Positions 109 to 30,676 of a DNA stretch of 35,186 nucleotides are shown piece by piece. The notes under the pieces are model-generated. The model did not search any database. It saw only the letters and a list, made by a program, of their open reading frames with translations, and was not told where the DNA came from. Source of the DNA: Gammaproteobacteria bacterium (lineage in GTDB: Bacteria; Pseudomonadota; Gammaproteobacteria; Chromatiales; Chromatiaceae); the NCBI GenBank assembly GCA_011390365.1, contig JAABSM010000039.1, positions 1 to 35,186 on the forward strand, given 5' to 3'. Positions within the stretch are counted from its first letter, which is position 1. Every line of letters starts with the position of its first letter. The position numbers were made by a program, and so were the translations under genes.

Positions 109-184
109 CATGCTCAATCAAGCCGCTATTAACTCGTCCGATCAAACCCTTGATCGTTCCACGTCCGCAAGAGTCACGTTCAGC

Positions 185-1909
185 ATGGATCAACCCGTCC
201 CCACCAACAGCGACCTGATCGTCGCCTACCTGGAACGCATCGGCGTCGAGCATGTCTTCGGCATCCCCGGCGGCCATATCGCCTCCCTCTACGAGGCCCT
301 GCATCGCAGCGAGCAGCGCGGCGGGCCGCGGCCGATCATGAACCGCCACGAAACCGGGGCCGCCTTCATGGCCGCCGGCTATACCCTGGAGAGCGGCAAG
401 ATCGGGGTCTGTTTCGTCACCGCCGGGCCGGGGGCCACCAATATCGTCACCGGCGCGGCGGAGGCCTACGCCTGCCATATCCCGATGCTGATCATCAGCG
501 GTCAGACGGTGCTGCCGCCGGCCGGGCGGGGGGCGCTGCAAGAGTGCGGCCCCTATCACGGCCCCTACCCCGATATCATCGACACCGTCGGCATGCTGGA
601 GCACTGCACCTGCTACAACGCCCTGGTGACCCACCCCAAACAACTGGAATACAAGTTGGCCGCGGCGCTGCTTGCCGCCCACCAGTCTCTGGGCGGTCCG
701 GCCCATTTGGCGATTCCCGCCGATATCCTGCGGGCGCAAGGCCCCGAGAGTCCGGCCTTTCCCAACCTGCCCAAGCTGATCGCCAACGCCCGCACGGAAT
801 CCTTCGTCGATGAACACGGCATGGACCAGCTCCAGGGGCTGGTGCGGGAGACCCTGGAGGGCGGCGGCAAGGTCGCGCTGTTCCTCGGCTACGAGTGCGG
901 CGAGGCGCGGGATCAGATCATGGCCTTCGCCGAGGCCGCGGATGCGCCGGTGGTCACCTCGCTGCGCGGCAAGGCCCAGGTCAACCCCTTTCACCCCTTG
1001 TTCAAAGGCGTCTACGGCGTGGGCGGCCACAAGAGCGCCCGCGCCGCGCTGGAAGACGAGTCGGTGCGGTTGATCCTGGCGGTGGGAACCAGCCTGGGGC
1101 AGATGGGCTCCGGGATCTGGAACGCCGCCCTGCTCAACGACAAGCTGGTGCATATCCATCACGCCAATACCTACTTTCTGCGCTCGCCCATGGCCCGCCT
1201 TCAGGTTCGGGGCACGCCGCGCCGAGTCTTCGAACAGCTCAATCAGGGCCTGAAGGACCTGGCGACCGAGACCGTCCATACCCTCCACCCGGACGCCGAC
1301 TTCCCGCCGCAACTGGAGATCCGTTCGCCGCAACTGGCCACCGACGACGCCGCGCCCATCAAGCCGGCGCGGGTGATGATCGAACTCAGGCGCCGCCTGC
1401 CCAGCGACACCCGCTACCTGGTGGACAACGGCACGGCGGTGGAGTGGAGCCTGCACTACCTGCTGCCGCGCAGCGCCGGGGCCTATCGCCTGATCTCCAC
1501 CTCGCCCTGCTCCATGGGCTGGGCGCCGGGCAGCGCCGTGGGCACGGCCATGGCCCAGCCCGGCATCCCGGTAGTCTGCCTGGTCGGCGACGCCAGCTAC
1601 TTGATGTACGGCCACGAGATCTCGGTCGCCGTGCAGGAACGCCTACCGCTGCTGTTCGTGATCCTCAACGACGATTGCTACGGCGCGGTCAAGCATCGCA
1701 ATCGCCAGATCGGCAACATCGACCTGCCCTTCGACCTGCCGCCGACGGATTTCGTGACCCTGGCGGAAGCGGTGGGCGCGCGCGGATATCGGGTCCAAAG
1801 CCCGGCGGATCTACAGGCGCTGGACTTGCCGGCGTTTCTGAAACACCCGGGGCCGACGGTGCTGGATGTGCGCATCGACCCGGACGAAGCACCGCCCATG
1901 GGCGAGTAA
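185..1909 (+). CDS. Thiamine-diphosphate-dependent enzyme, acetolactate synthase large-subunit-like
   Basis: A 574-aa member of the ThDP enzyme superfamily (acetolactate synthase, glyoxylate carboligase, 2-oxoacid decarboxylase). The N-terminal PYR domain starts with VEHVFGIPGGHIASLYEAL and carries the ThDP-activating glutamate in NRHETGAAFMAAGY. The C-terminal PP domain has the metal/diphosphate motif VGDASYLMYGHE followed by the LNDDCYGAVKH segment. Such enzymes make or cleave carbon-carbon bonds next to a keto group; the substrate cannot be read from sequence. No small regulatory subunit gene lies next to it, which argues against a housekeeping IlvB. An in-frame ATG at 110 would add 25 residues without family-like sequence and lies upstream of the TSS implied by the possible -10 box, so 185 is preferred. 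It is followed by a 276-bp gap and is probably transcribed separately from the next operon. Confidence 0.85.
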   Translation: MDQPVPTNSDLIVAYLERIGVEHVFGIPGGHIASLYEALHRSEQRGGPRPIMNRHETGAAFMAAGYTLESGKIGVCFVTAGPGATNIVTGAAEAYACHIPMLIISGQTVLPPAGRGALQECGPYHGPYPDIIDTVGMLEHCTCYNALVTHPKQLEYKLAAALLAAHQSLGGPAHLAIPADILRAQGPESPAFPNLPKLIANARTESFVDEHGMDQLQGLVRETLEGGGKVALFLGYECGEARDQIMAFAEAADAPVVTSLRGKAQVNPFHPLFKGVYGVGGHKSARAALEDESVRLILAVGTSLGQMGSGIWNAALLNDKLVHIHHANTYFLRSPMARLQVRGTPRRVFEQLNQGLKDLATETVHTLHPDADFPPQLEIRSPQLATDDAAPIKPARVMIELRRRLPSDTRYLVDNGTAVEWSLHYLLPRSAGAYRLISTSPCSMGWAPGSAVGTAMAQPGIPVVCLVGDASYLMYGHEISVAVQERLPLLFVILNDDCYGAVKHRNRQIGNIDLPFDLPPTDFVTLAEAVGARGYRVQSPADLQALDLPAFLKHPGPTVLDVRIDPDEAPPMGE

Positions 1910-2185: not shown

Positions 2186-3403
2186 ATGGCCCGCAAGAAT
2201 CACATCCTCAGCCGACTGCTCAATGGCGATACCGCCTTCGTCGATTTCATCGAAAACGAGCTGCAAGCCATCGTCGAAAACTATCGAGCGGAACATGGAC
2301 GCCCGGCCTACACCCTGAGCTTCGGCTACACCAGCCATCCCCTTCCCCCCATCGCGGCGAGGGCGATGTCGGAATATGCCCTGGGTCTGGCGGACCGCGA
2401 CACCTACACCAGCTATGAGCCGGTTTCGGGCAATCCAGCACTGAAACAGGCCATCGCCGACGACTATCAGCGCCGCTCCGGGGTGGCGATCGATCCACAG
2501 GCGATCTTCATCACCGATGGCGCGCAGCTGGCATCGGTGGCGGTACAGGAGCTGTTCGCCCAGAACAGCCTGGTCGCCCTGCCCGACCCGAGCTACCCCG
2601 CCTTCCTGGAAGGCACCCAGCTGCTGGGGCGACACTACATCTGGCTGCCCAACGACGCGGACGACCCGTTCATCCCGATACCGCCCAAGGAGCGGGTGGA
2701 CATCATCTACCTCTGCTTCCCCAGCAACCCCACCGGCAAGGTCGCCACCCGGGCGCAATTGCAAAGATTCGTCGATTACGCCCGCGAACACCAGGCGGTG
2801 ATCATTCACGACGCGGCCTATCGCTCCTTCATCCATACCACCGACGCGCCCGCCTCCATCTACGAAATCGAGGGGGCCGAGACGTGCGCCATCGAGATCG
2901 GTTCGCTGTCAAAAGACGCCGGTTTCGCCGGGCTGCGGGTGGGCTGGTGCATCCTGCCCCATGGGTTGACCATCTCCGGCACCGTAGCGGGGGAACTCCA
3001 CGCCATGTGGCGCCGGCAGCACCAGGTCAAGATCTGGGGCCCCTCCAACATCGCCCAGCACGGTGCGCTGGCGGTCTTCACCGAGGAGGGCAAGGCCCAA
3101 TGCCGGAAAGCGGTGGACTACTACCTGGGCAACGCGAAAATGCTGCGCCGGGCGCTGGAACACCTGGGCATACCCTGCCATGGGGCCATTGACAACCCCT
3201 ATGTCTGGGCCCAGTCCCCCACTCCCGATCAGAACGACCGGGCCTTTCTGGCGCAACTGCTCGATTACACCGGCCTGGTCGGGGCGCCAGGCACCATCTT
3301 CGGCCCCGGCGGCCAGGGCTATCTGCGCTTGAGCGGGTTTGGGGGGCGCGAGGAGATCGAGGCGATCAGCACCCACATCCATACCCTTACCTCGTTGACC
3401 TAG
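2186..3403 (+). CDS. PLP-dependent class I/II aminotransferase, LL-diaminopimelate-aminotransferase-like
   Basis: A 405-aa fold-type I PLP enzyme. Visible motifs are YTSYEPVSGNPALKQAI (substrate/PLP entry loop), CFPSNPTGKVAT (cofactor-ring asparagine), HDAAYRSF (the Asp/Tyr pair contacting PLP) and the Schiff-base lysine in GSLSKDAGFAGLRVGW. The C-terminal GPGGQGYLRLSGFG strongly resembles DapL. DapL makes LL-diaminopimelate from tetrahydrodipicolinate with glutamate as donor; a relative with another amino-acid substrate is equally possible. The ATG at 2186 is chosen because GGAGG (2177-2181) precedes it and the family N-terminus begins there. An in-frame extension back to 2018 runs through repeat-like DNA. 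Only 13 bp separate it from the DUF697 gene, so this enzyme appears to be part of the transporter/ATPase operon, an unusual partnership. Confidence 0.85.
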   Translation: MARKNHILSRLLNGDTAFVDFIENELQAIVENYRAEHGRPAYTLSFGYTSHPLPPIAARAMSEYALGLADRDTYTSYEPVSGNPALKQAIADDYQRRSGVAIDPQAIFITDGAQLASVAVQELFAQNSLVALPDPSYPAFLEGTQLLGRHYIWLPNDADDPFIPIPPKERVDIIYLCFPSNPTGKVATRAQLQRFVDYAREHQAVIIHDAAYRSFIHTTDAPASIYEIEGAETCAIEIGSLSKDAGFAGLRVGWCILPHGLTISGTVAGELHAMWRRQHQVKIWGPSNIAQHGALAVFTEEGKAQCRKAVDYYLGNAKMLRRALEHLGIPCHGAIDNPYVWAQSPTPDQNDRAFLAQLLDYTGLVGAPGTIFGPGGQGYLRLSGFGGREEIEAISTHIHTLTSLT

Positions 3404-3416
3404 CGCGACCAATGAC

Positions 3417-3965
3417 ATGGCCAAAAACCCAAAGGCGTTAAAGAAAAAGCGAGATCCCGCCGAGATGCCGCCACGCTTGTCGCAAGGCGAGGCCGAAGCC
3501 CGCCGCCAGCAGGCGCTCTCCGTCGTCCAGGACCACACCATCGGTTCGCTCGCCCCGGCGGCGATTCCGTTCCCGGTTTTCGATCTGGTGGCGTTGACTG
3601 GAATACAGCTCAAGATGCTGAATTCACTATGCAGCCTGTACGGATTGACCTTCTCGAACAAGGCCGCGCGGGTCGCCGTCACCTCGCTGCTGTCGAAGAT
3701 GCTGTCCACCTCCTTCACCCCGATGCTGGCGAGCTTCATCAAGGTCATTCCGGGCGTGGGCCAAGCCTCGGGGGTGGCCGGCATGATGGCCACCGGCGGG
3801 GCCTCGACCTACGCCGTGGGCAAACTGTTCATTCGTCACTTCGAGGCGGGCGGGAATCTGAGCAACTTCAATGCAAAGGCCATGAGCGGATATCTCCGCC
3901 AGGAGTTCGAGCAGGGCAAAAAAGTTTCCAACGATCTTGCCGCCAAGGACAATCACCTACCTTAA
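3417..3965 (+). CDS. DUF697/YcjF-like membrane protein (copy 1)
   Basis: A 182-aa protein of the DUF697 (YcjF-like) type. After a basic, charged N-terminus (about residues 1-40) come two hydrophobic blocks, HTIGSLAPAAIPFPVFDLVA and a glycine-rich one around FIKVIPGVGQASGVAGMM. The family signature STYAVGKLFIRHFEAGG follows, then an amphipathic tail with the charged segment EFEQGKKVSNDLA. DUF697 proteins are often near dynamin-like or Era-like GTPases and envelope-stress genes; their function is poorly known. A paralogue at 22239-22790 shares the PxPxxDLxxLxxxQLKML block, the xxxATYAVGKxFxxHFxxGG block and the EGKKV tail. It lies 13 bp after the aminotransferase and 36 bp before the symporter. 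No strong ribosome binding site precedes it, so translational coupling is likely. Confidence 0.75.
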   Translation: MAKNPKALKKKRDPAEMPPRLSQGEAEARRQQALSVVQDHTIGSLAPAAIPFPVFDLVALTGIQLKMLNSLCSLYGLTFSNKAARVAVTSLLSKMLSTSFTPMLASFIKVIPGVGQASGVAGMMATGGASTYAVGKLFIRHFEAGGNLSNFNAKAMSGYLRQEFEQGKKVSNDLAAKDNHLP

Positions 3966-4001
3966 ACTTCCCCCACCTCACGAGCTGATTCTGACGAAAA
4001 G

Positions 4002-5321
4002 ATGTCCAACCGTTACGATACCCTCGCCGCACAGGCCAACAATGCCCTGGAGCTCCTTGAGCGCCATTTGACCTGGCTCTCCCTGGTGTTCTTTACCATC
4101 GGCATCTTCTGGGCCGACCAATCCCCGGGGTTCGCGGTAGGCGTCAGCGGCGCCATGGAGGCCTTCATCGATGGATACGGCTATATCGCGCCCATCGCAA
4201 TCTACGTCATCCTGACGCCTACCCTGATCAAGCTCTTCACCAACGCCAGCGAGGGCACTGCCTTTGCCCTGCGTACCATGATCTGGTTCGCCAAGGCGCG
4301 CCTGCTGGCCTGCCTCTATGCGGTAATCATCACCACCCTGGTTTTCCATTTACCGTTGTATTCCCGCACTGGTGGCTTCCTGGAGGCGATCCAGGTTTCA
4401 CTGGAATCATTGGCCTGGATGCTAGTTAGCAGCGTTTACTTTTATGCGGTTTACGCCTCGATCATAACGGTATTGCTGGTTAGCCGAATGCCGAAAATTG
4501 CCGTTATCTTATCCAAAGGGGTCGACCTGGTTGAGTACCTGGGCCGCTTCATCGTCCCGATCATCCCGCTGTTGATGCTCGCGGTCGGCGCCTACGTCAC
4601 CATTCTTCCGTCGATTCTGAACGCGGAGTTGAGCAGCGAGCTCGACTTCTCCAAGTTGGGCGAGGTGACCATGCTGGGGGTATCGATCGATATCAGCAGC
4701 TCCCTGGGGATGATCTTCATCTACATTCTCGGCGCGCTTTTGACCGGGCTCGTTTGCGGCGTATGGCACGCTGGCCTGTTGGCGCTTGCCAAGAGAAGCA
4801 TGCCCGACTTTTCCCTGCGCGCCTACTTCTCCCAGTATTGGGTGAAGGTCTACCCGCTGCTGTGGGCCACATCATCCGAGGCGCTGGCAACCCCGATGAA
4901 TCTCTACATGGTCAGGAAATTCTGCCCCCAGGTGCGAGACGAGGTCCGCCAGTTCGTGGTAGGCACGGGCTCCTTCATGAATATCAATGGCACGGTCATC
5001 AATGTGTTTCTGATGACGGGGCTGGTGGCCGCGATTCTGGGCATCGAGATTTCCATGCTGCAACTATTGCTCAGCATACCGATCGTCTTTCTGATTGCCT
5101 ACGGCATCCCTGGCATCCCCGGTGAACTGCTGATCTTCGGCGGCCCCATGGCGCTATGCATGGGGGTTTCACCGGAATTGACATCTGTATTTCTCGCGCT
5201 TTATATTGGACTTCAGATCGGCCTGCCCGATTCTTTCCGTACCGCGGCAAACTCTACCGATGAATGTTTGAGCGCAATCATCTTGAACGACCGATATACC
5301 GAAAAAGGGCCGGCATCATGA
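4002..5321 (+). CDS. SLC1-type (glutamate/dicarboxylate:cation symporter-like) transporter
   Basis: A 439-aa polytopic membrane protein with roughly eight hydrophobic stretches plus re-entrant-like loops. The second half has the hallmarks of the sodium:dicarboxylate symporter (SDF/DAACS) family in diverged form. ATSSEALATPMNL stands where HP1's serine-rich motif lies. GTGSFMNINGTVINVF corresponds to the TM7 NMDGT segment. AYGIPGIPGE matches the HP2 loop. DSFRTAANSTDECLSAIIL matches the TM8 D-x-x-R-T-x-x-N block, which retains the arginine that binds a side-chain carboxylate in glutamate carriers. It probably moves an acidic amino acid or dicarboxylate with Na+ or H+. It overlaps the P-type ATPase gene by four bases (ATGA), so the two are translationally coupled. 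The linked aminotransferase fits an amino-acid substrate. The divergence is large, so another substrate is possible. Confidence 0.75.
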   Translation: MSNRYDTLAAQANNALELLERHLTWLSLVFFTIGIFWADQSPGFAVGVSGAMEAFIDGYGYIAPIAIYVILTPTLIKLFTNASEGTAFALRTMIWFAKARLLACLYAVIITTLVFHLPLYSRTGGFLEAIQVSLESLAWMLVSSVYFYAVYASIITVLLVSRMPKIAVILSKGVDLVEYLGRFIVPIIPLLMLAVGAYVTILPSILNAELSSELDFSKLGEVTMLGVSIDISSSLGMIFIYILGALLTGLVCGVWHAGLLALAKRSMPDFSLRAYFSQYWVKVYPLLWATSSEALATPMNLYMVRKFCPQVRDEVRQFVVGTGSFMNINGTVINVFLMTGLVAAILGIEISMLQLLLSIPIVFLIAYGIPGIPGELLIFGGPMALCMGVSPELTSVFLALYIGLQIGLPDSFRTAANSTDECLSAIILNDRYTEKGPAS

Positions 5322-7357
5322 TCTCTACCCTTGGCATTGTCTTCATGGCCAGTGGCGCGAGTTTGGGGCATATTCACAAACTGCCCGCGAAAAACCGCAT
5401 CCGCGCGCTACGGAAAAAGAGCACCAGCGAGGCGGTCCAGCAAGCGACCCAGGGCGGCAACCCGCTCGCCGCACCGATCCCCCACAACCGAAAGCCTTAT
5501 CAGTTCCCGATCATGAGCGGGATGTTGGGACTGAGCGTGGCGGCCCAATTCAGCGCGCCGGTCTTGATCCCGGTCGCCCTGATCGGGATCGGCTACCTAT
5601 CCGCCAATATCTTTGAAGAGGCCGCTACCGCCATCTTCCGGGAAAAACGGGTGCAGGTGGATATTCTGGATGCCACGGTCATTACGTTGTGCGTCGGCTT
5701 CGGACAAATCGCCGCCGCCGGCCTCATGGTCTGGGTACTCGACATCGCGGACCTGTTGCTGGAGAAGACCCGAGATCGTTCCGAACGCTTCATTAGCGAC
5801 ATCTTCGGCTCGCAACCGCGCACCGCCTGGCTGCTTAAGGACGGCCAGGAGATCGAGGTTGCGGTGCGGGATTTGCGCAAGGGTGACATCATCGCCGTCA
5901 ACACTGGCGAGCAGATACCCGTCGACGGAGTCGTGGTATCCGGCACCGCGATGATTGACCAGCACAGCCTGACCGGCGAAGCCGCGCCGGTGGAAAGACA
6001 CGAAGGCGACAAAGTCTACGCCATGACGGTCATGGTCGCCGGCCGGATTCATCTGACGGTGGAAGAGACCGGTGAAGATACCCTCGCCTACAAGATCGTG
6101 ACCATCATCAACGATGCCGCGAATTTCAAGGTCGAGCTGCAATCCACTGGCGAACGCATCGCCGACAAGATGGTCACGCCAACCCTGGGTCTTGGGCTAT
6201 TGGGCTACTTTACCGCCGGCGCGGGGGGCATGTTGGCGATCATTAACGCCGATTACGGCACCGGGATTCGCGTCGCCGCCCCCATCGCACTGCTGGCGGC
6301 GCTGGGCCGGGCCGCCCAGCACGGCGTTCTGATCAAGGATAGCCAGGTCTTCGAGGGCCTGAAGGATATCGATGCGGTCCTCTTCGACAAGACCGGCACC
6401 CTCACCTACGATGTCCCCGCGGTCGCCGCTATCGTGCCCGCCAGCAGTGACTATGCGGAGGACCAGATCCTGCTCTATGCCGCGGCCGCCGAACAGCGGT
6501 TCTCCCACCCCATCGCCAAGGCGATACTCGCCGAGGCGCAGCGACGCGGCCTGGCCCTGCCGGAGCACGACGAATCCCAATATCACGTCGGCCTGGGTAT
6601 CACCGTCACTGTCAACGACGTACAGGTCAAGGTGGGCAGCGCCCGCTACATGGAACAGGAGAAGATCCCCTTGCCGGAGGGTATCGCCCAGGCGCTGGGT
6701 TCGATACGCGCGCGCGGCCACAGCGCGATCCTGATCGCCATTGATGACAAAATGGCGGGGTTGATCGAGCTGCAAGCCACGGTGCGTGAAGAGGCGAAAC
6801 GGATCATCGCCCATTTGCGCGCGCGCGGCATCAACGAAATCGTGCTGATCTCCGGCGACCATGAAGCCCCGACGCGGGAACTCGCTACCCGCCTGGAGAT
6901 GGATCGCTTTTTCGGCGGGGTACTGCCCCATGAAAAGGCGGACTATGTAAAGATGCTGCAAGCCGAGGGCAAGAAGGTGATGATGGTCGGGGATGGCATC
7001 AACGACTCCGCGGCCCTATCCCTCGCCGATATCGCCGTCTCCCTGCAGGGCGCGTCCACCATCGCCATCGATGTGGCGGATGTGGTGTTCATGGATGGCA
7101 ACCTGGAGAAATTCGATTACCTGTTCGAGGTAACGGATGTCCTGCACGAAAATGTTCGTCGTAGCTTCGCGCTGATCGCGATTCCAAACTCGGTGTGCAT
7201 TCTCGGCGGGCTGACCGGCGTCTTCGGCCTCGCCGCCTCACTGGTACTGAACAACGGCTTCAATCTGATATCGGCGCTGAATGCCGCCTGGGCCTATCAT
7301 GAGGTCAAGGATCCCGCGACCAAGGCGCTGCCAGCACAAGCCCCGAAAAAGTTGTAA
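5318..7357 (+). CDS. P1B-like P-type ATPase with N-terminal arginine-rich motif and non-cysteine TM6 motif
   Basis: A 679-aa cation-pumping P-type ATPase. The start ATG overlaps the symporter stop (ATGA); an upstream in-frame ATG at 5264 lies inside the symporter gene. There is no heavy-metal-associated domain. A hydrophobic segment (residues 4-15) is followed by a basic cluster, KNRIRALRKK (25-34). The catalytic core is intact: TGEA (219-222) in the actuator domain, phosphorylated aspartate D357 in DKTGTLT, the P1B-type HP motif in RFSHPIAKAI, and GDGINDSAAL in the phosphorylation domain. Before DKTGT, the ion-binding helix reads VAAPIALLAALG (319-330), where classical P1B pumps have CPC, SPC or TPC, so the metal-thiolate site is absent. 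The ion is therefore unpredictable. The arginine-rich N-terminus recalls ferrosome P1B-6 ATPases (FezB), as I remember them. It probably loads a cation into the periplasm or an intracellular compartment. Confidence 0.88.
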   Translation: MISTLGIVFMASGASLGHIHKLPAKNRIRALRKKSTSEAVQQATQGGNPLAAPIPHNRKPYQFPIMSGMLGLSVAAQFSAPVLIPVALIGIGYLSANIFEEAATAIFREKRVQVDILDATVITLCVGFGQIAAAGLMVWVLDIADLLLEKTRDRSERFISDIFGSQPRTAWLLKDGQEIEVAVRDLRKGDIIAVNTGEQIPVDGVVVSGTAMIDQHSLTGEAAPVERHEGDKVYAMTVMVAGRIHLTVEETGEDTLAYKIVTIINDAANFKVELQSTGERIADKMVTPTLGLGLLGYFTAGAGGMLAIINADYGTGIRVAAPIALLAALGRAAQHGVLIKDSQVFEGLKDIDAVLFDKTGTLTYDVPAVAAIVPASSDYAEDQILLYAAAAEQRFSHPIAKAILAEAQRRGLALPEHDESQYHVGLGITVTVNDVQVKVGSARYMEQEKIPLPEGIAQALGSIRARGHSAILIAIDDKMAGLIELQATVREEAKRIIAHLRARGINEIVLISGDHEAPTRELATRLEMDRFFGGVLPHEKADYVKMLQAEGKKVMMVGDGINDSAALSLADIAVSLQGASTIAIDVADVVFMDGNLEKFDYLFEVTDVLHENVRRSFALIAIPNSVCILGGLTGVFGLAASLVLNNGFNLISALNAAWAYHEVKDPATKALPAQAPKKL

Positions 7358-7521
7358 CTTGGCCGTTTGTCGACGGGTTTCACCTTAAGTGTCGCGGCCT
7401 TGCCAGCAGTATTGCCGGATTGAGGATCATGCCGAGACTCCCCCATCCCTCTCCCGGTCGACGCCAGACACCGCCATGGCGAGGAGCAAAGAGACGGATG
7501 AGCGGAGGCCGGCGTGGGGGT

Positions 7522-7716
7522 TTACGCGGCGGCGGCTTCTTCCACTGGCACTTCACCCTTCGCGGCGGCGCGCTCGGCCAGTTTCTTGCCGAGATAGTAG
7601 GCGCCGCCGCCAATCAGGGCCGCGCCGACAACCGCGACACCAACGGGGTGAGCGGCCAGGAAGGCGACGGTGCCGGTTTTCGCCGCGGATGCGGCGGATA
7701 CGATTTCTTTGGTCAT
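7522..7716 (-). CDS. Small alanine/glycine-rich single-helix membrane protein
   Basis: A 64-aa protein with one hydrophobic helix (about residues 18-42, containing HPVGVAVVGAALIGGGAYYLG) followed by a basic stretch (KKLAERAAAKG) and an acidic alanine-rich end. The ATG at 7716 is chosen because GGAGAA (7722-7727) precedes it. Upstream, at 7768-7796, a convincing sigma70 promoter points at it. It is the only minus-strand gene within the actin/ATPase cluster and diverges from the actin operon. Family not recognised. The glycine-zipper-like GxxxG patterning suggests helix packing in a membrane. Small glycine-rich membrane proteins are common accessories of bacterial organelles, so an accessory role here is an inference. 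Confidence 0.7.
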   Translation of the reverse strand: MTKEIVSAASAAKTGTVAFLAAHPVGVAVVGAALIGGGAYYLGKKLAERAAAKGEVPVEEAAAA

Positions 7717-7767
7717 GATGGTTCTCCAGATAGAGGAAAAAGTGCATTTAATCAACTAGCGACCTGC

Positions 7768-7796
7768 ATTCTATATTCGACCTGCGATGTTCGCAA
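7768..7796 (-). promoter_or_regulatory. Sigma70-type promoter for the 64-aa membrane protein
   Basis: On the minus strand TTGCGA (7791-7796) is followed after exactly 17 bp by TAGAAT (7768-7773), four of six and five of six consensus matches. It lies about 50 bp upstream of the start codon and back to back with a plus-strand -10 box at 7800. Confidence 0.55.
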
Positions 7797-7799
7797 GGG

Positions 7800-7805
7800 T
7801 ATAAT
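7800..7805 (+). promoter_or_regulatory. Perfect -10 box for the MamK-like operon
   Basis: TATAAT on the plus strand. The best-spaced -35 (TTCGAC, 7776-7781, 18 bp) is poor, suggesting activator dependence. Two copies of CGACCTGC (7760-7767 and 7778-7785) sit just upstream. The implied leader to the first start codon at 7986 is about 170 nt. Confidence 0.4.
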
Positions 7806-7985
7806 AAAGTTGTGGCGGGCGTTTATCAGGGAACTCCTCGAATGCCCGTAGCGCCGCGACAAACCCTCTCCCCGACCATCGTAAAGGCGGATTCAGTCAA
7901 GGCGGGGAGATGAATTTTGCTTAATGGCAAGTAGCGCGCGCGAACAAAAAATTTAACGCGATTATTTTTTTTGAGGATAGCAGAT

Positions 7986-8348
7986 TTGGCCCCCGTCGTT
8001 TTCCTGCCACCCGCACTGAAGACCCTGCTGGCGACGCTCGCCCCCTGGCTGGCTGGCGCCGCGGCGGCAGGCGGCATCGCCGGCTACCACCGCGCGATCA
8101 ATGCGCAACTCCGGACGCGCCTGGGTCACGTTGGGGAGATGAATGGCCAGGGGAACATGCCAGCCAGCGAGGAAAGCGACCTTGGCCCCGCGCGGGATAA
8201 AACCTCGCCCAGCGCCTCGCCAAACACCGAACCGTTGGCCCCCTCCGGGGGCGCGGAGATTTCGGATGACGCTTCGTCCCCCAAGCGGTCCTTTCTGCGA
8301 AAAATCATGGAATCCAACATCACGCTGCGCAAGCAACCGGCGGAGTAG
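7986..8348 (+). CDS. Small membrane-anchored protein with a long hydrophilic tail
   Basis: A 120-aa protein with an N-terminal hydrophobic region (about residues 3-33, including LAPWLAGAAAAGGIAG). A polar, Ser/Pro/Glu-rich, low-complexity tail follows, ending in a basic segment (KRSFLRKIMESNITLRKQ). I choose the TTG at 7986 because GAGGA (7973-7977) sits at good spacing; a TTG at 7971 is in frame but overlaps that ribosome binding site. No family recognised. It is the first gene of the MamK-like operon, 68 bp before the actin. A membrane anchor with a disordered cytoplasmic tail is a plausible adaptor between a membrane and the filament, but this is inference. Confidence 0.6.
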   Translation: MAPVVFLPPALKTLLATLAPWLAGAAAAGGIAGYHRAINAQLRTRLGHVGEMNGQGNMPASEESDLGPARDKTSPSASPNTEPLAPSGGAEISDDASSPKRSFLRKIMESNITLRKQPAE

Positions 8349-8416
8349 AATGGCGATGTCATTGCCGGATTCATCCGCTAACCGAGATTCATCAGCTCAT
8401 TAGTAAGGAGGCTGCC

Positions 8417-9424
8417 TTGACGAACACCTTTTACGCGGGCATCGACCTGGGAACCAGCCGCACCACCATCACCACCTCCAGCGGCAGACGCATGACCACC
8501 CTCTCCTGCGTGGGATACTGCAAGGACTTCATCGCCCGCAAACGCTTCGGGCGTGATTACCTGCTGGGCGAGGAGGCCCTGGAACACCGCCTCGCGCTGG
8601 AGATGATCTGGCCGCTGGAGCACGGCGTGATCCGCGACGATGAAAAATCCCGCGAGGCGACCCGCCTGATCATCTCGCACCTGATCGACCGGACCCTGCC
8701 TGAACGGGAATCCGGCGACCAGCTCCTGACCGCCGTGGGGGTGCCCGCACAGGCCAGCCTGAACAGCAAGAAGACGATTCTCGCCGCCATTGAGCCCCTG
8801 GTTGGCAAGTTACTGGTGGTCAGTGAACCCTTCGCCGTCGCCTATGGACTGGATCGCTTCGATGAGTGCCTGATCGTGGACATCGGCGCCGGCACCACGG
8901 ATCTTTGCCGGATGCACGGCTCCTACGCCGAGGAGACGGACCAGCTGACCCTGACCAAGGCGGGCAACTACCTGGATCAGGCGATCATGGAGGCGATTCA
9001 GGAGAAATATCCCGAGGTCCAGTTGACGCCGCAAATCGCCAAGCGGATCAAGGAGAAGTACGGCTATGTCTACGACACCTCGGACCCGGTCAAGGTCACC
9101 CTGAGCAGCAAGGGCGTGCAGGGCGAGTATGATCTCACCGATGTCCTCCACGCGGCCTGCCTCAAGCTGGCCGAGCCCATCAGCGAGGCGATCGGGGAGC
9201 TGATCGGCACCTTCGACCCCGATTTTCAGGAGCGGCTGCGCAATAACGTGATACTGGCCGGTGGCGGTTCGCGGCTGCGGGGCATCGACCGCGCCATCGA
9301 AAAGAGCCTGACGCCCTACGGCGGCGGGCGCGCGACCTGCGTGGATGACGCGGAATTCTGCGGCGCCATGGGGACCCTCAAGATGTGCGAAGACATGCCC
9401 CTGGAGGAGTGGGAGAGACTATGA
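8417..9424 (+). CDS. mamK-like: MamK-like bacterial actin
   Basis: A 335-aa actin-superfamily ATPase that resembles magnetosome MamK along its whole length. Phosphate-1 loop is AGIDLGTSRTT (residues 7-17); phosphate-2 loop is VDIGAGTTDLCRMHG (154-168), nearly the MamK sequence. VSEPFAVAYG (135-144) carries the predicted catalytic glutamate E137. STFDPEF-type and RLRNNVILAGGGSRLRG segments form the adenosine site, and the C-terminus GAMGTLKMCEDMPLEEW is MamK-like. MamK filaments line up and segregate magnetosomes in magnetotactic bacteria. The start is TTG at 8417, with AAGGAG (8405-8410) six bases upstream; no ATG fits the conserved N-terminus. No other recognisable mam gene lies in the window. 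In this context it probably organises a membrane compartment or pump array rather than magnetite chains. Confidence 0.9.
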   Translation: MTNTFYAGIDLGTSRTTITTSSGRRMTTLSCVGYCKDFIARKRFGRDYLLGEEALEHRLALEMIWPLEHGVIRDDEKSREATRLIISHLIDRTLPERESGDQLLTAVGVPAQASLNSKKTILAAIEPLVGKLLVVSEPFAVAYGLDRFDECLIVDIGAGTTDLCRMHGSYAEETDQLTLTKAGNYLDQAIMEAIQEKYPEVQLTPQIAKRIKEKYGYVYDTSDPVKVTLSSKGVQGEYDLTDVLHAACLKLAEPISEAIGELIGTFDPDFQERLRNNVILAGGGSRLRGIDRAIEKSLTPYGGGRATCVDDAEFCGAMGTLKMCEDMPLEEWERL

Positions 9425-9473
9425 ACACTTGCCCCGCGCGTCCGCGAATCCAAGGCGAGAGGAGAGGCGAGTC

Positions 9474-9638
9474 ATGCATTATCTGATGCTTGGGCTGATC
9501 TGGTTCACCCTGGCGGTGCTCCTGGGCGCCCTCGGGCGTCATCGCACCATGGGCTTCTGGGGCTACTTCTTCGCCTCGCTGGTACTGACCCCCATCATGG
9601 GCCTGCTGCTGGTGCTGGTCTCTGGCAAGCGGAGCTAG
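9474..9638 (+). CDS. 54-aa two-helix membrane protein
   Basis: Two hydrophobic helices (about residues 3-20 and 27-49) are joined by a short basic loop, GRHRTMGFWGYF, and end in GKRS. A purine-rich GGAGAGGCGAG sequence precedes the ATG at 9474. It lies 49 bp after the actin gene and 6 bp before the second ATPase-like gene, so it is cotranscribed. Its size and topology resemble small magnetosome membrane proteins such as MamI in general form only; no sequence relationship is claimed. It also resembles generic small two-helix inner-membrane proteins with a GFWGxF loop. Confidence 0.65.
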   Translation: MHYLMLGLIWFTLAVLLGALGRHRTMGFWGYFFASLVLTPIMGLLLVLVSGKRS

Positions 9639-9644
9639 CTCGCG

Positions 9645-11372
9645 ATGATCTGGGGCAAGGTCGGCATCGTCGCGGGGGTCTATCTCGGCACCCGTCTCAC
9701 CTCGCGGCAGACCCGTTCGAGGATCCGTTCACTGCGCACGCCCGAAAAACGGCCACCGCCGAACACCCCGGCATCCATGCACGCCCTCGAAGCCGCCGGC
9801 GAGACGCGCGAGTCGACCACCCGCCACCCCTTTCTGGGAGCAAGCACCCTCAGTCTGGCCACCGCCTCCGCCGGCTACCTTTTCTTTCCCGCCGTATTGG
9901 GCCCCATTACCCTGGCCCTCCTGACCTACTCGACCACGCCCATGCTGTTGCGGGCGGAGCGACGCCTGCGCCAGTTGCCCGCGGGGGCCTCGCCGCGCCT
10001 CGACAAGGATGGTTACGCGGCGCTGGTCAGCGGCATCTGCCTGGTCGCCGGCCAATGGGGCGCGGCGGCGGTCTATAACACCGTCTATCACTTTTCCGAA
10101 AGGGCCGCCACGGGCGAACGGAGGCGCACCGCAAAGCGATCGGCGACGCTCTATGCCGCGCACAAGCAATCCGCCGCCGCCTGGGTATCCCGCGACGGCA
10201 TCGAAATGCCGCTGCCCGCCAGCCAGATCCGCCCGGGAGAGACCCTGGTGATCAACACCGGCGAGATGGCGCCGGTGGATGGGCTGGTCCTGCACGGCCA
10301 GGGGACCATCGACGCCGTTGATGAAGATGGCAAGGTCGGCATCGCCAGAATCGAAAGCGGCGCGACCATCCCCATGGCCGCGCTGCTCCTTGAGGGCCGG
10401 CTGGAGGTCAAGGCGCTGCGTTCCGGCGCGGAGTGCGAGGCCCGCCGCGCCGATAGTATCCGCGCGCGCATCGAGGCCCACCAGCACAAACTGCAAGACT
10501 ACGCCGATAACTGGGCGAATCGCGCCGCCCTGCCTTTCCTGGGGATGGCCGCGCTGGCCTGGCCGCTGTTCGGCGTCACCACCGCCATCGGCCTGCTCTT
10601 CTCCGCCCCCGCCACAAGCAATCATGCGGTGCTTTCCCTGCATACCGCCAACCACCTCGATTGGGTCGCCAAGGGCGGTGTCGTGTTCCGCGACCCGCGC
10701 GCGCTGGACCGGCTTGTGCGGCTCGACGCCGTGGTATTCGATGGCACGCACTGGCTGGCCGCCAACCAGACCGAAGCGACCCAAACGATCGTGGAACTGC
10801 GGGAACGGGGCGTCAAGCGGATTGTCCTGATCGCCGCGGAGAGCGACGCGACGACTGAAGGTATCGCCGAGGCCGTTGGCATCAGCGAGATCCACTGGGA
10901 TCCGACCACCCGCCGCAAGGCGGAGATCGTCGACCGGCTCAAGGATCAGGGACATCGCGTGGCCTTTGTGGGCGACAAGCTCGATGGCTTGCTGGCCCTG
11001 AAGAGCACGGACGTCTCGATCTGTTCCGGCCAGGCCGCGGACTACATCGCCGAATCCGCCGACATGCTACTGCTTGGCAGTGGCCTCGGCGGCATCGTCA
11101 GGGCGCTGGATAGCGCCCGCTCCCTGCCCATCAAACAAACCGCGGAGATCGGCTCCTGGGGCTCCCTCGCCTTCATTAATACCCTGTTCGTCGCCTTCCT
11201 GCGCTTCTCGCCCCTGCAATCCAGCCTGCTGTGCGCCGCCGCGTTCGCGCTGGAGTATCGCCAGACGACACGGCCGCCCCGTAATCTCAAGGCGGCGGCC
11301 GAGCGGCAGGGACAGGCGCGCCGCGATCGGGAAGCCAACACCATCGAAGGGATGGTCGAGGTCGTTAACTGA
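9645..11372 (+). CDS. Catalytically dead P-type ATPase homologue (pseudo-ATPase)
   Basis: A 575-aa intact reading frame with a P1B-ATPase architecture but no catalytic motif. The N-terminus repeats the pattern of the ATPase at 5318: one hydrophobic segment, then an arginine-rich cluster, RQTRSRIRSLR (21-31). The actuator domain is recognisable (NTGEMAPVDGLVLHGQGTID, 204-223), but the TGEA loop is replaced by VDEDGK. The phosphorylation motif DKTGT is DGTHW (D366 retained). The nucleotide-binding domain is gone: DGTHW is followed almost directly by the phosphorylation-domain helix ELRERGVKRIVL. GDGxND is GDKLDG (443-448). The TM6 motif is SAPATSNHA. With no frameshift or stop, the protein is evidently selected for a non-pumping role. 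A regulatory or structural partner of the active ATPase, perhaps a heteromeric scaffold, is inferred. Confidence 0.85.
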   Translation: MIWGKVGIVAGVYLGTRLTSRQTRSRIRSLRTPEKRPPPNTPASMHALEAAGETRESTTRHPFLGASTLSLATASAGYLFFPAVLGPITLALLTYSTTPMLLRAERRLRQLPAGASPRLDKDGYAALVSGICLVAGQWGAAAVYNTVYHFSERAATGERRRTAKRSATLYAAHKQSAAAWVSRDGIEMPLPASQIRPGETLVINTGEMAPVDGLVLHGQGTIDAVDEDGKVGIARIESGATIPMAALLLEGRLEVKALRSGAECEARRADSIRARIEAHQHKLQDYADNWANRAALPFLGMAALAWPLFGVTTAIGLLFSAPATSNHAVLSLHTANHLDWVAKGGVVFRDPRALDRLVRLDAVVFDGTHWLAANQTEATQTIVELRERGVKRIVLIAAESDATTEGIAEAVGISEIHWDPTTRRKAEIVDRLKDQGHRVAFVGDKLDGLLALKSTDVSICSGQAADYIAESADMLLLGSGLGGIVRALDSARSLPIKQTAEIGSWGSLAFINTLFVAFLRFSPLQSSLLCAAAFALEYRQTTRPPRNLKAAAERQGQARRDREANTIEGMVEVVN

Positions 11373-11399
11373 CACGTCAAACCATCTGGAGATCTGACC

Positions 11400-11828
11400 A
11401 TGCTTGAAAACCTCTTGCGCACGCCCGCGGCGGCCGAGCTTCGTTCCTTTGCGGAAGACATTGGCGCCTGGACTCGGGAACAGGTCGAAGGGGCGGTGAT
11501 GCGCCGCCCGGAGACCCTGGCGATCCGGTTTCGCGCATGGTGCAATGAGAACCTGGAGGACGAATCGATAAAGGACTGGGTCGCCGAACTATCGGATCAG
11601 GGCATGGAAATCCTCGTTCAACAGGTTGCGCGGTTCCTTGCCGAGTTCGACCTGGAGATCGAGTGGCTGTTCTCGCCGCAACCGCCCCCACCGCCGGAAC
11701 TTGCCGCCAACCTGCGCCTCATGGTGGAAAACTACTGCCGCGCCTGCCACTTGGCGGTAGAGAGTTACGAAGCGGGAAAACGGCACAAGCGCATGACCCG
11801 TATCGCCAGGCTCAGCGCCAATCAATAG
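11400..11828 (+). CDS. Hypothetical soluble protein at the end of the MamK-like operon
   Basis: A 142-aa protein without signal peptide or membrane helices. It is mostly predicted helical, with an acidic first half, a proline run (QPPPPPE, about residues 97-103) and a C-terminal part with a Cys-x2-Cys pair (YCRACH) and a basic end. GGAG at 11388-11391 precedes the ATG. It follows the pseudo-ATPase by 27 bp. No family recognised. Its position suggests a cytoplasmic partner of the membrane proteins in this operon. Confidence 0.6.
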   Translation: MLENLLRTPAAAELRSFAEDIGAWTREQVEGAVMRRPETLAIRFRAWCNENLEDESIKDWVAELSDQGMEILVQQVARFLAEFDLEIEWLFSPQPPPPPELAANLRLMVENYCRACHLAVESYEAGKRHKRMTRIARLSANQ

Positions 11829-12236: not shown

Positions 12237-12240
12237 CTAG
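12141..12240. mobile_element. 100-bp inverted-repeat element (MITE-like)
   Basis: Perfect 18-bp inverted repeats, CTAGTGCAGCACCCGCCA (12141-12158) and its complement (12223-12240), flank a 64-bp AT-rich core. If TA is read as a target duplication, the layout suits an IS630/Tc1-like MITE; that family call is inference. The right arm overlaps the last codon and stop of the MscK-like gene. The arms could also form a terminator-like stem for both convergent operons. Confidence 0.7.
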
Positions 12241-15200
12241 GAAGGCGGCGGGTTTTCGTTATCGCTTTTTGCGGCAAGCGTCTTTGCATCGCGCAATATG
12301 GCCACCCCCGGCTGGGGCGTGAGTTTGATCGATTCCCGCTGAAACCGTTCGACGATCCCCGCGTTGATCTCGGTCTCCACCTTGGCGCGTTCGGCGAAGC
12401 GCAGGATGTCGTAGTGCATGCGGATCACGAAGCTGTAGTCGTCGAAGTGGTCGTGCTTGACCCAGACGAAACGGGCGCCGGGGTGGGCCTGAATCACCTC
12501 TTCGATGATCCGCAGGGCGCGCAATATCCGGTTCGCCGGGTTCTTGATGGAGAGGCGAATGTTGGTCAATACGGCATAGCCGGGGTGGGCCGAGGTATTG
12601 ATCGTTTCGGCCTCGGAGAGCAGGGAGTTGGGCACCGTCACCTTGTATTTGTAACTGAAGTCTTCGAGGATGGTATAGCGGATATTGATCGCCTTGACGA
12701 TGTAAGTGCCCCCCTTGAACTGAATCCGATCGCCGATCTTGAACAGCCGGGTGAGCATGATGGTGATGCCGCCGATGATATCCCCCAGCACACCCTTGGC
12801 CGCCATCGCCAGGGCGAAGCCGCCGATACCGATGCCGGCGAGTATGGCGCCGATATTGAAGCCCAGGGCGCTCAGGGTCATCAGCAAGGCGACGCTCCAG
12901 ATCGCGAGCCGCGACACCAGCCCAAGCAGGTTGATGATGGAGAGCATGGCGGCGTCATCCGCGCTGCCTTCTTCGATCCGGGCCTCGGCGTTGCGTATCC
13001 AGCGCCGCTTGCCCACTCTCACCACCATCAGCGCGACGATGGTGATCAGCAGAATCACCACCAGCTTGATCGCGACGATGGTCATGGTTTCGCGGTAGAG
13101 CTTGATCCGCTGGGCGCGCAACAGGGCGATCTCGGAGGAGGGGCCGCCGCCAATCAGTTCGACGCGACGCTCCAGGGTCTCCCAGCGGGACTCCAGTTCG
13201 GCGATCATCTCCTGAAACCCGCCGATCAACCGATCCAGGCCTTGCGCGGAGCGCCGCTGCTCCACCAGGCTCAGCCAGCGGTCGACGGCGCGCACCTCCA
13301 TCTCCCGGGCGAAGCTTGCCTTGGCCGCCTGGCGCAGGTACTCGGCCCGCTCGTCGTCGGCCAAGGGCGGCGGCATCGGCGGTCGGTAGCCGTACCGCGC
13401 CTCGAATCCCTCCAGCAATTCGCGGGCCTGATCCGGGTTCAGGCGCACCTGAATCAGAAGCTTGTGCTCCTCGCGCCGCCGCAACGCGTCCTCGCGCCGG
13501 CTCTCCAGCGCCTGGATCAGGGAGGCGAGGGACTCCTTCTCGGTCTGATACTGGCTGATCACCCCCTCCGCCAGGGTTTTGCGCTGTTGCAGGTTTCCCT
13601 GTTTTCGGTCTAATTCACTCAGTTCCAGATAATAGTCTTGCAGCATCTCCGCCAGGGTCTGGAGGCTGTCGGAGGCGTAGAAGATCCCCATCAGGGTCTC
13701 CGCCCAGGTATTCTCCTGCTCCATCCGCTGGCTCGCGGCGCGCTCGACCTTCTTGCGCTCGATCTCCGCAAGGTCCGACAACTCGGTGTCGAAGGCGGCG
13801 GCGAGTTGGCGGATGTTGCGCAACCCATCCAGACGCTGGCCGGCGAGCTCGTTGATCCTGGAGAAGATCCGCTTCTCTTCCTCGCCCTCCTGTTGCGCCC
13901 CCTGCAGGGCGTCCAGTTCCCGGCGCAGGCGGGATTGGATGTCGAGCAGGCGCGCCCGCTCTTCCCCCAGGCTGCTGATCGACTCGCGCTTGAGGGATTC
14001 GATGATGCGCCCGGGGTGCCTGGCGGAGGCGATCTCGCCGCGACCGACCCGCTTCTTGAACTCGCCGGCGGCGACCAGCCGCTGCTGGGCCAGGGAGTAG
14101 CCGTCATTGAGGGCGGCCAGGAGTTGCTCGATCTCATCAACCAGGCCGCCAAGCGCCTGGGTGAGCGCCGCCTCAAGGCGGTCGCGTTCCTCGGTGATGC
14201 GTAGGCGGGTGGTGATCAGGTGCTGAAACGCCTCCACCCGGGCGATACTCTCCGCTACGCTGGGGGACGCCGCGGCGCTGGGCTGCTCCCGCACCGCTGG
14301 CTGAGGGGATTGCTGATCCCCGGCTTGATCCGCCCGCGGCGCCGCTGGCTTGGCCGCCGCGGGATCCGCGCCACCGGCCGCCGCGCCCGCAGCCGATGAT
14401 GGCTGGGGCTCTTGCGCGGTGTCGCGCATGCCCTCGGGTATATCGAGATTGGCGGTCTGAAAGAGGTCCAGCAGGATCTTGTTTTCGAGTGCCGCCGCCT
14501 GGGTCTCCTCTTCCCGCTCGAAAGGCCCCTTGAGGGAGGCGAGCTCCTCGCGCAAACCGTCGGCCTTGGCGGCGGCGGTGCGATAGGCCTCCCTGCGGGT
14601 TTCCAATTGCTGGCCTTTTTCCTGCCATTCCGCGTAGACCCGCGCGAAGTGTTCGCCGACCTGTTCGGCCGCCATCTCTTTCAGTTCGGCGGCCCAGGCC
14701 TCGGTCTGTCGTCCCGTCTCGGCGACCTTGCGCGCCTCTTCAAGGCGGTTTTCGGCCTCTTTGAGGGCCGCTTGCGTCGTCGCACGATCCTCTTCCAGCG
14801 CCTCCTTCCAGGTCCGCGCCCCTTCCCGCGCCGCCTGCGCATCGGAGATCAGTGACGACAGTTGCCCATCGAACCCACTGAGACGCTCCAGCGAGACCGT
14901 CCCCTCGCCGCCAGACTCCTCCAGCAGCCCGGCGATCACCAGCATCGGGAAGATGTGCTCCACCAGCACCGAGGCATCCGCCTCCAGCACGCCCGCCGCG
15001 TCGCTCAGGGATTGGGCCTGCCCCAGCGCCTCATCGATCCGTTGCAGGCGCGCGCTGGCCGCCTCCACCGCGAGTTCCGGCGTGTCCGCGGCAGCCTCGC
15101 TGGCGGCGGGCGTCGCTTGCCGCCCCTGCTCGCCTTGACGGGGCCTGGCCAAGGCCCGTTCCATCTCGCTCTTCGCTTGGCGTGCGGCGACGAAGGCCTC

Positions 15201-17764: not shown

Positions 17765-18822
17765 CGCAGGGTAACCGGGGCTTCCGTCGCCGGCGCTGGC
17801 GCTGGCGCGGCGGCAGGCTGGACCTGGGGCTGGAGTTGCGGCGGCGGGTTTTCACCTTCCGGCGGGGCCGCGCCCTGATCTGGCGGGGGCGGCGCGCTCG
17901 GACCTTCCGCCGCCTCTGCGCCGCTACCCTTGTCGGCGGGCGGTTCGCTGTTCCATTGATTCCCCAGGATCACCGGTAATCCCTGTTCGCCCGCGCCGAT
18001 GATGACCACCTTGGCGTTCCGCGACTGAACCAGGCTCTCGGTTGCGTTTACCGCCTGCCACTTGATCAGGGATTCCGAGAGGGTTTCGTTGATGGTTTGC
18101 TGGTAGTCCCGAATACCTCCGGCCTCGATCTTCTTGCGCTTGGCCTCCTCGCCCGCGACCTGCAACTTGAATTCGTACTTTTGCAGGACCTGCTCTTCCA
18201 CCAGCTTCTCTTCGATGGCGTTACGCACCAGGTCGGGGAGGTGGACCTCGCGGATGATGATATCGTCGACGTTGACGTACTTGCGGCTGGCCTCGTCAAT
18301 GGCGATGCGCAGGATACGGTTCAGCACCCCCTCCTTGTTGGTGTAGACATCCTCGGGGTTCAACTGACCGATATTCTTTCTCAGCACCGACTCGATCTGC
18401 GGGACGATGATCTTTTCCACATAGTCGGGGCCGACGTGCTTGTGCAGCAGGCCGACCATGTCGTATTCGGGCTTGAAGCGAATCGCCAGCTTCAGGGTAA
18501 TCGGCAGACCCTTGTTGGTCAGCACGATAAGCTCATGATAACGGGTCTGGACACGCACGTTGTAGATGTGCATGGTATTCCAGGGATAGATGACGTGCAG
18601 CTTCTCCGGGAAGATGTAGTTGGTCTCGGTGCCCGTCGTCAGCATTCGGTAGAGCACGCCGGCCTCGCCGGAGCGCACCACGATGAAGATTCGGGAAAAG
18701 AAAAACAGCGCCACGATGATCAGGATCAGGATCGCGACCACGAAGAACGGGGCCTTGTCCTTGAACCAGTAGACGATGCCCCGCTTGCGCTTGCCCGATG
18801 ACTCCGCTGTGTTTTCCGCCAT
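17761..18822 (-). CDS. SPFH/band-7 (prohibitin-like) membrane protein
   Basis: A 353-aa protein: short basic cytoplasmic N-terminus, one membrane helix (about residues 25-45, FVVAILILIIVALFFFSRI), then the SPFH domain from VVRSGEAGVLYRM through VEKIIVPQIESVLRKNIGQ. A charged helical segment with EEKLVEEQVLQKYEFKLQVA follows, then a Pro/Ala/Gln-rich tail. SPFH proteins form large rings or cages that define membrane microdomains and chaperone membrane proteases, as HflK/HflC do for FtsH. The start lies six bases after the stop of the caspase-like gene, and the end overlaps the lipoprotein gene, so expression is tightly coupled. It is likely the scaffold for its operon partners, including the channel. 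Confidence 0.9.
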   Translation of the reverse strand: MAENTAESSGKRKRGIVYWFKDKAPFFVVAILILIIVALFFFSRIFIVVRSGEAGVLYRMLTTGTETNYIFPEKLHVIYPWNTMHIYNVRVQTRYHELIVLTNKGLPITLKLAIRFKPEYDMVGLLHKHVGPDYVEKIIVPQIESVLRKNIGQLNPEDVYTNKEGVLNRILRIAIDEASRKYVNVDDIIIREVHLPDLVRNAIEEKLVEEQVLQKYEFKLQVAGEEAKRKKIEAGGIRDYQQTINETLSESLIKWQAVNATESLVQSRNAKVVIIGAGEQGLPVILGNQWNSEPPADKGSGAEAAEGPSAPPPPDQGAAPPEGENPPPQLQPQVQPAAAPAPAPATEAPVTLR

Positions 18823-22790: not shown

Positions 22791-22837
22791 CTTCACTCTC
22801 CCGCGTTTTATATATCAGGTGGTTACATTCGATCGCG

Positions 22838-28907: not shown

Positions 28908-28917
28908 GGCGCGTGCC
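28908..28917. repeat. Target-site duplication, left copy
   Basis: GGCGCGTGCC, identical to 29140-29149, bounds the 222-bp element. Its length (10 bp) is typical of IS4-type transposition, among others. Confidence 0.9.
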
Positions 28918-29850: not shown

Positions 29851-29885
29851 AGTAATATCGCGCCGAAGGTTGGCGTTGCGGAATT

Positions 29886-30664: not shown

Positions 30665-30676
30665 GGAACTAAATCA

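Follow-up and report, generated by a model that had tools for sequence, protein, structure and literature searches.

The window analysed here is a stretch of 35,186 nucleotides, contig C102 (JAABSM010000039.1) of a gammaproteobacterial genome of the family Chromatiaceae (GCA_011390365.1, here G000; 4.26 Mb, 98% complete, 169 contigs), and our subject is a dense cluster within it that encodes an actin-like protein, two arginine-rich relatives of P1B-type ATPases, a symporter and several small membrane proteins. Pfam and NCBIfam profile searches of the window proteins confirmed the gene set of an initial annotation made from the letters of the DNA, its members being open coding frames that lie about where it had placed them. 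The genes form two groups on the forward strand (Table 1): the first (2186-7357) comprises an aminotransferase, a DUF697 protein, the symporter and an intact ATPase, and the second (7971-11828) a probable anchor protein, the actin, SM3, a broken ATPase and ORF142. Gaps inside each group are 6-68 bases or are replaced by a short overlap, and SM1 sits between the groups on the opposite strand. A further run, read on the reverse strand from 22796 to 12237, opens with a second DUF697 protein and a WD40/caspase-like protein, continues with an SPFH protein and a periplasmic-binding-like receptor, and closes with an MscS channel; some of its members recur elsewhere beside actins of the Bbp type described below, which extends the initial annotation, whose cluster had ended at 11828.

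Table 1. Genes of the window discussed in the text (L, locus; G, genome)
Feature	Position	Strand	Basis or remarks
Thiamine-diphosphate enzyme (acetolactate synthase / 5-guanidino-2-oxopentanoate decarboxylase-like)	110..1909	+	Below all shown cut-offs; loosely linked
Class I/II aminotransferase, at the head of the upstream operon	2186..3403	+	Pfam/NCBIfam
DUF697 protein	3417..3965	+	Pfam 5e-14; homologues beside the same actin in L084, L086, L087, L090
SDF/SLC1-type symporter, overlaps the ATPase start	4002..5321	+	Pfam 2e-13
Intact arginine-rich P1B-type ATPase (PATP1), without CPx	5318..7357	+	TIGR01525, 436 bits
SM1, 64-residue membrane protein with HPVG motif	7522..7716	-	Hidden Markov model homologues in partner loci
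Probable actin adaptor/anchor: N-terminal hydrophobic segment, C-terminal LRKIMESNITLR motif	7971..8348	+	Motif comparison across loci
Bbp-family actin-like protein	8417..9424	+	TTG start, GGAGG upstream
SM3, 54-residue two-helix membrane protein	9474..9638	+	Homologue by SPFH and DUF697 genes in L090 (by eye)
Broken arginine-rich ATPase (PATP2), without nucleotide-binding domain	9645..11372	+	Motifs, tree
ORF142, no known family	11400..11828	+	36-40% identical homologues in G143, G128, G081
MscS-type mechanosensitive channel, long N-terminal region; last gene of the second run	12237..16070	-	
Periplasmic-binding-protein-like receptor	16172..17764	-	Also near actin in L085, L086, L090
SPFH/band-7 membrane protein	17761..18822	-	Also near actin in L085, L086, L090
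WD40 / peptidoglycan-binding / caspase-like protein	18829..22242	-	
Second DUF697 protein	22239..22796	-	62% identical homologue just downstream of the L087 actin

The actin had been described as very like MamK, the filament protein of magnetosomes. It scores 367 bits against the NCBIfam MamK model (NF040964), just under the curated membership cut-off of 400 bits, and 191 bits against the BeeR model; an MreB is encoded separately in the genome (contig C44, 483 bits). Among solved structures the best match to its sequence is chain 5ljw_A (264 bits), an actin-like ATPase according to its entry, which we take to be MamK. A small-alignment scan of genome contigs was used to collect relatives, and the best 80 loci fall into 25 with 56-69% identity and 55 with 42-51%, the latter mostly from Planctomycetota and used below as controls. 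The hosts of the 25 closer actins are Thiotrichales, other Gammaproteobacteria, Desulfobacterales, Desulfonema magnum, Zetaproteobacteria, symbionts and Riflebacteria. These match the hosts of Bbp, the "big bacteria protein" of Geelhoed et al. 2023, which the accessible text of that paper gives as Beggiatoa, Thioploca, Thiomargarita, Desulfonema, Zetaproteobacteria and Riflebacteria, leaving the function open and proposing a role in cell structure or transport in large cells (PMC10580974). We therefore equate the group with Bbp, an identification that rests on the host list in the accessible text and not on a Bbp sequence from that paper. In a 59-row tree (quick search, branch support by the Shimodaira-Hasegawa-like approximate likelihood-ratio test, SH-aLRT, only, no bootstrap), 27 Bbp rows, namely the 25 loci, the actin of G310 and that of the window, occupy one side of a branch with support 91; the actins of G059 and G092, two magnetotactic relatives, fall outside. 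The rows nearest to the window actin by path are L067, L071 and L082; its mates in a small clade are L067, L071 and L087, the last placed there with support 93. By these comparisons the window protein belongs to the Bbp family and is not a MamK: the likeness to MamK stands, the clade is another.

The gene just before the actin (7971-8348) had been counted among three tiny membrane proteins. All three genes are present, and the product of this one proves to be a conserved partner of the actin. Among 25 Bbp loci with at least 300 bases of upstream sequence (the window included), 21 have an open reading frame (ORF) that ends less than 400 bases from the actin and carries a C-terminal motif with the approximate consensus L-x-x-[IL]-[IV]-x-D-N-[IV]-x-L-R, which in the window reads LRKIMESNITLR. 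L083, whose contig starts 245 bases before the actin, brings the number of such ORFs to 22, of which 19 have a 19-residue hydrophobic window of mean at least 1.6; two of the remaining three are cut by the contig start and one is from Riflebacteria. The middle part appears coil-like by eye. The same motif pattern precedes 12 of the 55 control actins (Planctomycetota and others), there without a strong membrane helix, and was not found before the MamK of two magnetotactic relatives (L030, L031). Across 1069 distinct ORFs of 60-260 residues, a background of neighbours rather than of genomes because the loci were chosen for actins or ATPases, 27 carry the motif within their last 45 residues; for 26 of them a MamK-like actin follows within 326 bases, and the other lies at a contig end. 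A conserved small partner gene before Bbp, with a C-terminal motif of the form DNxxLR and in most cases an N-terminal membrane helix, is thus a new element. As judged from this architecture, the protein is probably a membrane anchor of the filament, and its motif may bind Bbp.

The two ATPases both begin with a hydrophobic segment followed by 7-8 basic residues in 30, as the initial annotation had noted; such a start is a mark of FezB. Its call of one active P1B-like enzyme and one dead homologue was likewise borne out at the level of motifs. The first keeps TGE, DKTGT, HPIA and GDGIND, and thereby the P1B-type set (TGE, DKTGT, HP, GDGxND), and is predicted to be active; the second reads DGTHW and GDKLD, has lost TGE and the columns of the nucleotide-binding domain, and is presumably inactive. 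In third-position G+C (0.83) the second matches its coding neighbours. Both are without the cysteine CPx motif seen in ordinary P1B pumps. The matching place in the membrane reads IRVAAPIALL; among aligned arginine-rich ATPases this place often reads R-x-x-AP-x-x-x-LN. Out of 51 aligned ATPases, 35 show a hydrophobic stretch starting at or before residue 30 and then at least five basic residues in 30, the remainder including fragments and doubtful starts. The intact ATPase has eight orthologues with 59-74% identity. A genome-contig search with the broken one as query returned no relative; in the ATPase tree it is the sister (97) of another broken copy, 1.5 kb behind the actin of L087, a pairing that may reflect attraction since both branches are long. 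Four more ATPases complete the six-row clade (98) around this pair, namely the one two genes ahead of the L082 actin and those of G000 contig C2, G002 and G089, and the ATPases near the actins of L081 and L084 are also sisters (100). An apparent half ATPase, L175:16806-17954, was rejected, being a DoxX-domain protein; this protein and L205:4893-6032, which by eye resembles a homologue of it, have hydrophobic and arginine-rich starts of their own and lie near arginine-rich ATPases.

The initial annotation grouped the actin with the ATPases, and named a conserved block in non-magnetotactic strains as an outcome that would support its reading. We compared up to 10 kb on each side of the actin in the 26 Bbp loci other than the window and in the 55 controls. 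A homologue of the intact ATPase occurs in 7 of the 26 and in none of the controls (Fisher, 2e-4), one of the seven being truncated (L086) and one broken (L087). DUF697 occurs in four, SPFH with the receptor in three and any partner in eight of these Bbp loci, again as against none (5e-5). At the class level, 5 of 369 Gammaproteobacteria carry Bbp (>440 bits) and 10 the ATPase (E<=1e-85): it is found in all five Bbp genomes, which represent five families, as against 5 of the 364 others (p 5e-9; 2e-7 without G000). This threshold also admits hits of 30-33% identity (~288-305 bits), probably ordinary pumps, and 34 of 195 genomes of the family pass it; a limit of 340 bits, applied afterwards, gives 5/5 versus 4/364 in the class and 2/4 versus 9/191 (p 0.016) in the family, a partial and a fragmentary Bbp gene (G027, G112) being counted. 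In searches that scored all candidates, 18 of 22 genomes reached via Bbp loci have the ATPase as against 0 of 31 with other MamK-like actins, the latter representing part of the 55 control loci; all 18 stay at the 340-bit limit, with best hits of at least 365 bits. Loci L071, L086 and L087 lie outside the 22-genome set, and their genomes (G089, G411, G433) all have ATPases; with these, G000 and G310 the count becomes 23 of 27, and with G027 and G112, which have none, 23 of 29. The four Bbp genomes without the ATPase are G570, G575, G578 and G581. Magnetochrome domains exceed the cut-off in G570, G578 and G581, and also in G310 and G569, which have ATPases too; the genome of G575 measures 2.4 Mb, and its actin clusters with three from genomes that have ATPases. 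The linkage exceeds chance and holds in genomes without magnetochrome genes, although close relatives do not preserve the block itself. Both the neighbourhood and the co-occurrence are new here: no report joining Bbp or MamK-like actins with such ATPases was found in the text open to our search, with preprints and most subscription papers outside its scope.

Other genes of the cluster have ties of their own. The symporter, which the initial annotation had included, directly precedes the orthologue of the intact ATPase in 6 of 8 other genomes (63-79% identity; one of the six is cut by a contig end). The exceptions are G574, which has no symporter, and G017, where the contig ends 0.5 kb upstream, with DUF697 adjoining. 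No solved structure was matched by its sequence. ORF142 and DUF697 recur together beside an arginine-rich ATPase in G143, G128 and G081. Homologues of SM1 were found with a hidden Markov model in actin or ATPase loci (L081, L085, L086, L219 with two, L179 and L231), and in the 55 control loci there were none at E<0.01 and one at 0.02. A structural model of DUF697 from six sequences (mean predicted local distance difference test score 69.6) gave low-Z helical matches only, the best at 5.6. A 929-residue fusion of a DUF697 domain with a P1B ATPase (L178:8906-11695, G411) was considered as strong proof of a shared task and rejected as such: its ATPase has an ordinary CPC motif, so that the fusion ties DUF697 to P1B ATPases only as a general class.

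The base of our interpretation is thus observed at the gene level: the protein families, the tie of the anchor motif to MamK-like actins, the link of ATPase and actin, the pairing of symporter and ATPase, and the lost catalytic motifs. From it we infer filament binding by the motif, a compartment, a direction of transport and a cargo. The mechanism that we tentatively favour, as plausible though short of probable, is that Bbp filaments, via the anchor, organise pump-bearing membranes, most likely internal compartments, which the ATPase and the symporter load. Its elements would be the following: 1) The filament is Bbp. 2) The anchor would hold the membrane by its N-terminal helix and the filament by its C-terminal motif. 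3) The filaments would arrange stretches of membrane in which the arginine-rich P1B-type pumps sit together with SM1, DUF697 and possibly SPFH; these stretches would most likely be internal compartments that arise from the inner membrane. 4) The broken ATPase may be a structural stand-in, which would keep the membrane address of the pumps without pumping and offer the filament a fixed partner. 5) The intact ATPase and the SLC1-like symporter would load one lumen, the former with a cation at the expense of ATP and the latter with an acidic or dicarboxylic solute.

Several points weigh against this mechanism. The exact block was found in G000 only, with G027, G089 and others examined: the Bbp gene of G027, which belongs to the same genus, is partial and that of G112 a fragment, neither genome has such an ATPase, and in G089, of the same family, the nearest arginine-rich ATPase is 10.5 kb from the actin. 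In the sequence available, neither an ATPase nor a DUF697 or SPFH partner accompanies the actin in 18 of the 26 other Bbp loci, and four loci (L072, L076, L077, L079) have no upstream anchor gene. Five of the 364 genomes carry ATPases without Bbp, the co-occurrence tests ignore kinship, and the absences of the class search are less sure because the three best candidates per genome were scored. Many arginine-rich ATPases sit with biosynthetic genes, and the compartment is one that has been deduced from genes and not seen. Shared mats and gene transfer could, moreover, link two unrelated traits. Bbp would then be a cytoskeleton of cell size or architecture, as its discoverers propose in the accessible text of their paper (PMC10580974), with the co-occurrence ecological, both traits spreading by gene transfer through mats common to large bacteria of the sulfur cycle, and the occasional neighbourhood a by-product. 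Its hosts among the best 80 loci, mostly Thiotrichales, other Gammaproteobacteria and Desulfobacterales, agree with such a view, as do the numerous ATPases of these hosts (up to 14 hits per genome, in G566), from which some chance neighbourhood is to be expected; densities predict 0.8 loci and 7 were observed. Against this view, partners recur in five actin subclades, including a Mariprofundaceae locus with DUF697 and SPFH and no ATPase, they are lacking in all controls, and the two sister broken ATPases accompany actins of one small clade. We regard the purely ecological explanation as a serious possibility, albeit a somewhat unlikely one.

A different kind of evidence comes from what else the arginine-rich ATPases sit with. 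Of 94 proteins encoded by operon neighbours (same strand, gaps of at most 150 bases, at most three on each side), 78 were scanned, 16 having been dropped as known cluster members, one duplicate or frames judged spurious, and were compared with 77 control genes more than 3.5 kb from an ATPase (6 of 83 left out). The control comparison covers 25 of 125 families, with all of at least two members included and single hits mostly out of view. Among the 78 are ketoacyl synthases (6), class I/II aminotransferases (5), DegT (3), AMP-binding proteins (3), carbamoyltransferases (2), Orn/Arg-type pyridoxal-dependent decarboxylases (2) and methyltransferases (4). None of these families except the methyltransferases, which are equally common in the control (4, beside 3 epimerases), has at least two members among the 77. 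Polyamine genes of the carboxynorspermidine synthase/decarboxylase type also occur: an NspC gene over its cut-off lies near an arginine-rich ATPase in L204 (8481-10453), and in L179 (17042-19998) the start of an ATPase is overlapped by a carboxynorspermidine synthase-like gene (511 bits against a cut-off of 800). This result, the least expected of our analysis, suggests that at least part of the ATPase family transports organic molecules or metal complexes of these. Within the window, the enzymes at 110-1909 and 2186-3403 reach the curated cut-off of none of the models shown; the former has a 45% identical homologue two genes before an arginine-rich ATPase in G002. Elsewhere in G000, large polyketide/peptide synthase-like genes are immediately followed by one more arginine-rich ATPase (L191:2260-11998, contig C153).

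The same neighbours, with the want of a cysteine CPx motif in the aligned arginine-rich ATPases, would also fit pumps of the cytoplasmic membrane for small organics (of polyamine, guanidino, polyketide or peptide type) supplied by their operons, the actin organising membrane domains and no compartment being involved. We think this unlikely: the window's own neighbours name no product, and export alone leaves the symporter pair and the actin link unexplained. Returning to the compartments favoured above, a broader and distinctly speculative form of the idea, rather unlikely as a whole, is that giant and filamentous sulfur bacteria have a further actin-organised organelle. Bbp would tether and distribute a set of compartments through a DNxxLR-type anchor and a broken ATPase acting as a pump-like adaptor, and a dedicated arginine-rich P-type pump would fill each compartment with what adjoining biosynthetic genes make. 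Ancestrally, the actin would have been partnered by such an anchor or a soluble version, and the same actin-anchor pair would have been adopted by some magnetosome clusters.

Two observations on the window stand apart. The gene order at 29846-33491 resembles, by eye and not by search, a multi-subunit pyruvate/2-oxoacid:ferredoxin oxidoreductase. Similar ORF starts (MMRLISWVRRPF... and relatives) at 11878-12129, at 28279-29100 and in L048 (10755-10940) suggest a dispersed repeat in G000.

Bbp is a candidate for how the largest bacteria manage their interior, and the literature examined, as far as its text was accessible, names no partner for it. A probable anchor and a rare pump family, found with it across several classes, offer the first testable hypothesis for its function. 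Should the compartments be real, actin-organised organelles would not be confined to magnetosomes, and large sulfur bacteria would use them for stored metals or metabolites.

The published Bbp and the actin group of the window have the same kinds of host and lie apart from both MamK and MreB. The accessible text on Bbp reports a hypothetical second gene and, in one host, a Kelch protein, and there makes no mention of a conserved motif, a membrane anchor or ATPases (PMC10580974); our literature search, with most subscription journals outside its scope, found no second paper on the "big bacteria protein". The loci of Planctomycetota and other MamK-like actins share the C-terminal motif by pattern (the 12 of 55 given above) and differ in lacking a strong membrane helix and, among the 31 genomes searched, an arginine-rich ATPase. 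Ferrosomes, which store iron, resemble the cluster in a P1B-type ATPase with a hydrophobic start and an arginine-rich stretch, as in FezB, beside small membrane proteins. A true ferrosome positioned by the actin is nevertheless very unlikely. The available text on the ferrosomes of D. magneticus describes FezC, a DUF4405-like cytochrome (PMC10979944). A DUF4405 of this type gave no hits in G000, and in eight genomes searched the hits and the listed ATPases were on different contigs or, on one whole chromosome, more than 200 kb apart. The parts of the ferrosome literature consulted for comparison mention no actin, anchor, symporter or broken ATPase.

A decayed or transferred magnetosome cluster can be given only a negligible probability, and we rejected a magnetosome remnant as the best reading. 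Two Bbp loci (L088, L091) do seem, by eye, to lie among MamE-, MamI- or MmsF-like genes, in genomes that carry magnetochromes. The window genome has no magnetochrome domain, as against positive controls in G059 and G092, which agrees with the initial annotation's remark that no other magnetosome gene is seen, the other mam genes not having been searched individually. The window actin, moreover, lies outside the MamK clade of the related magnetotactic genus, and G310 holds a MamK-type actin on a magnetochrome contig and Bbp elsewhere. In Mariprofundus (L088) the Bbp-type actin with its anchor (6018-7022) has a second MamK-like actin, 37% identical to the window's, about 7 kb downstream, so that we make no claim that Bbp replaces MamK there. 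Among the closest parallels is nonetheless the magnetosome pair MamK-MamJ, in which, according to the accessible text, an actin-like filament is likewise joined to an organelle membrane by a second protein (PMC13052382). The adaptor of the window differs in having its own membrane helix and a short C-terminal motif. By analogy, the Bbp system would work like the magnetosome skeleton without being a member of it.

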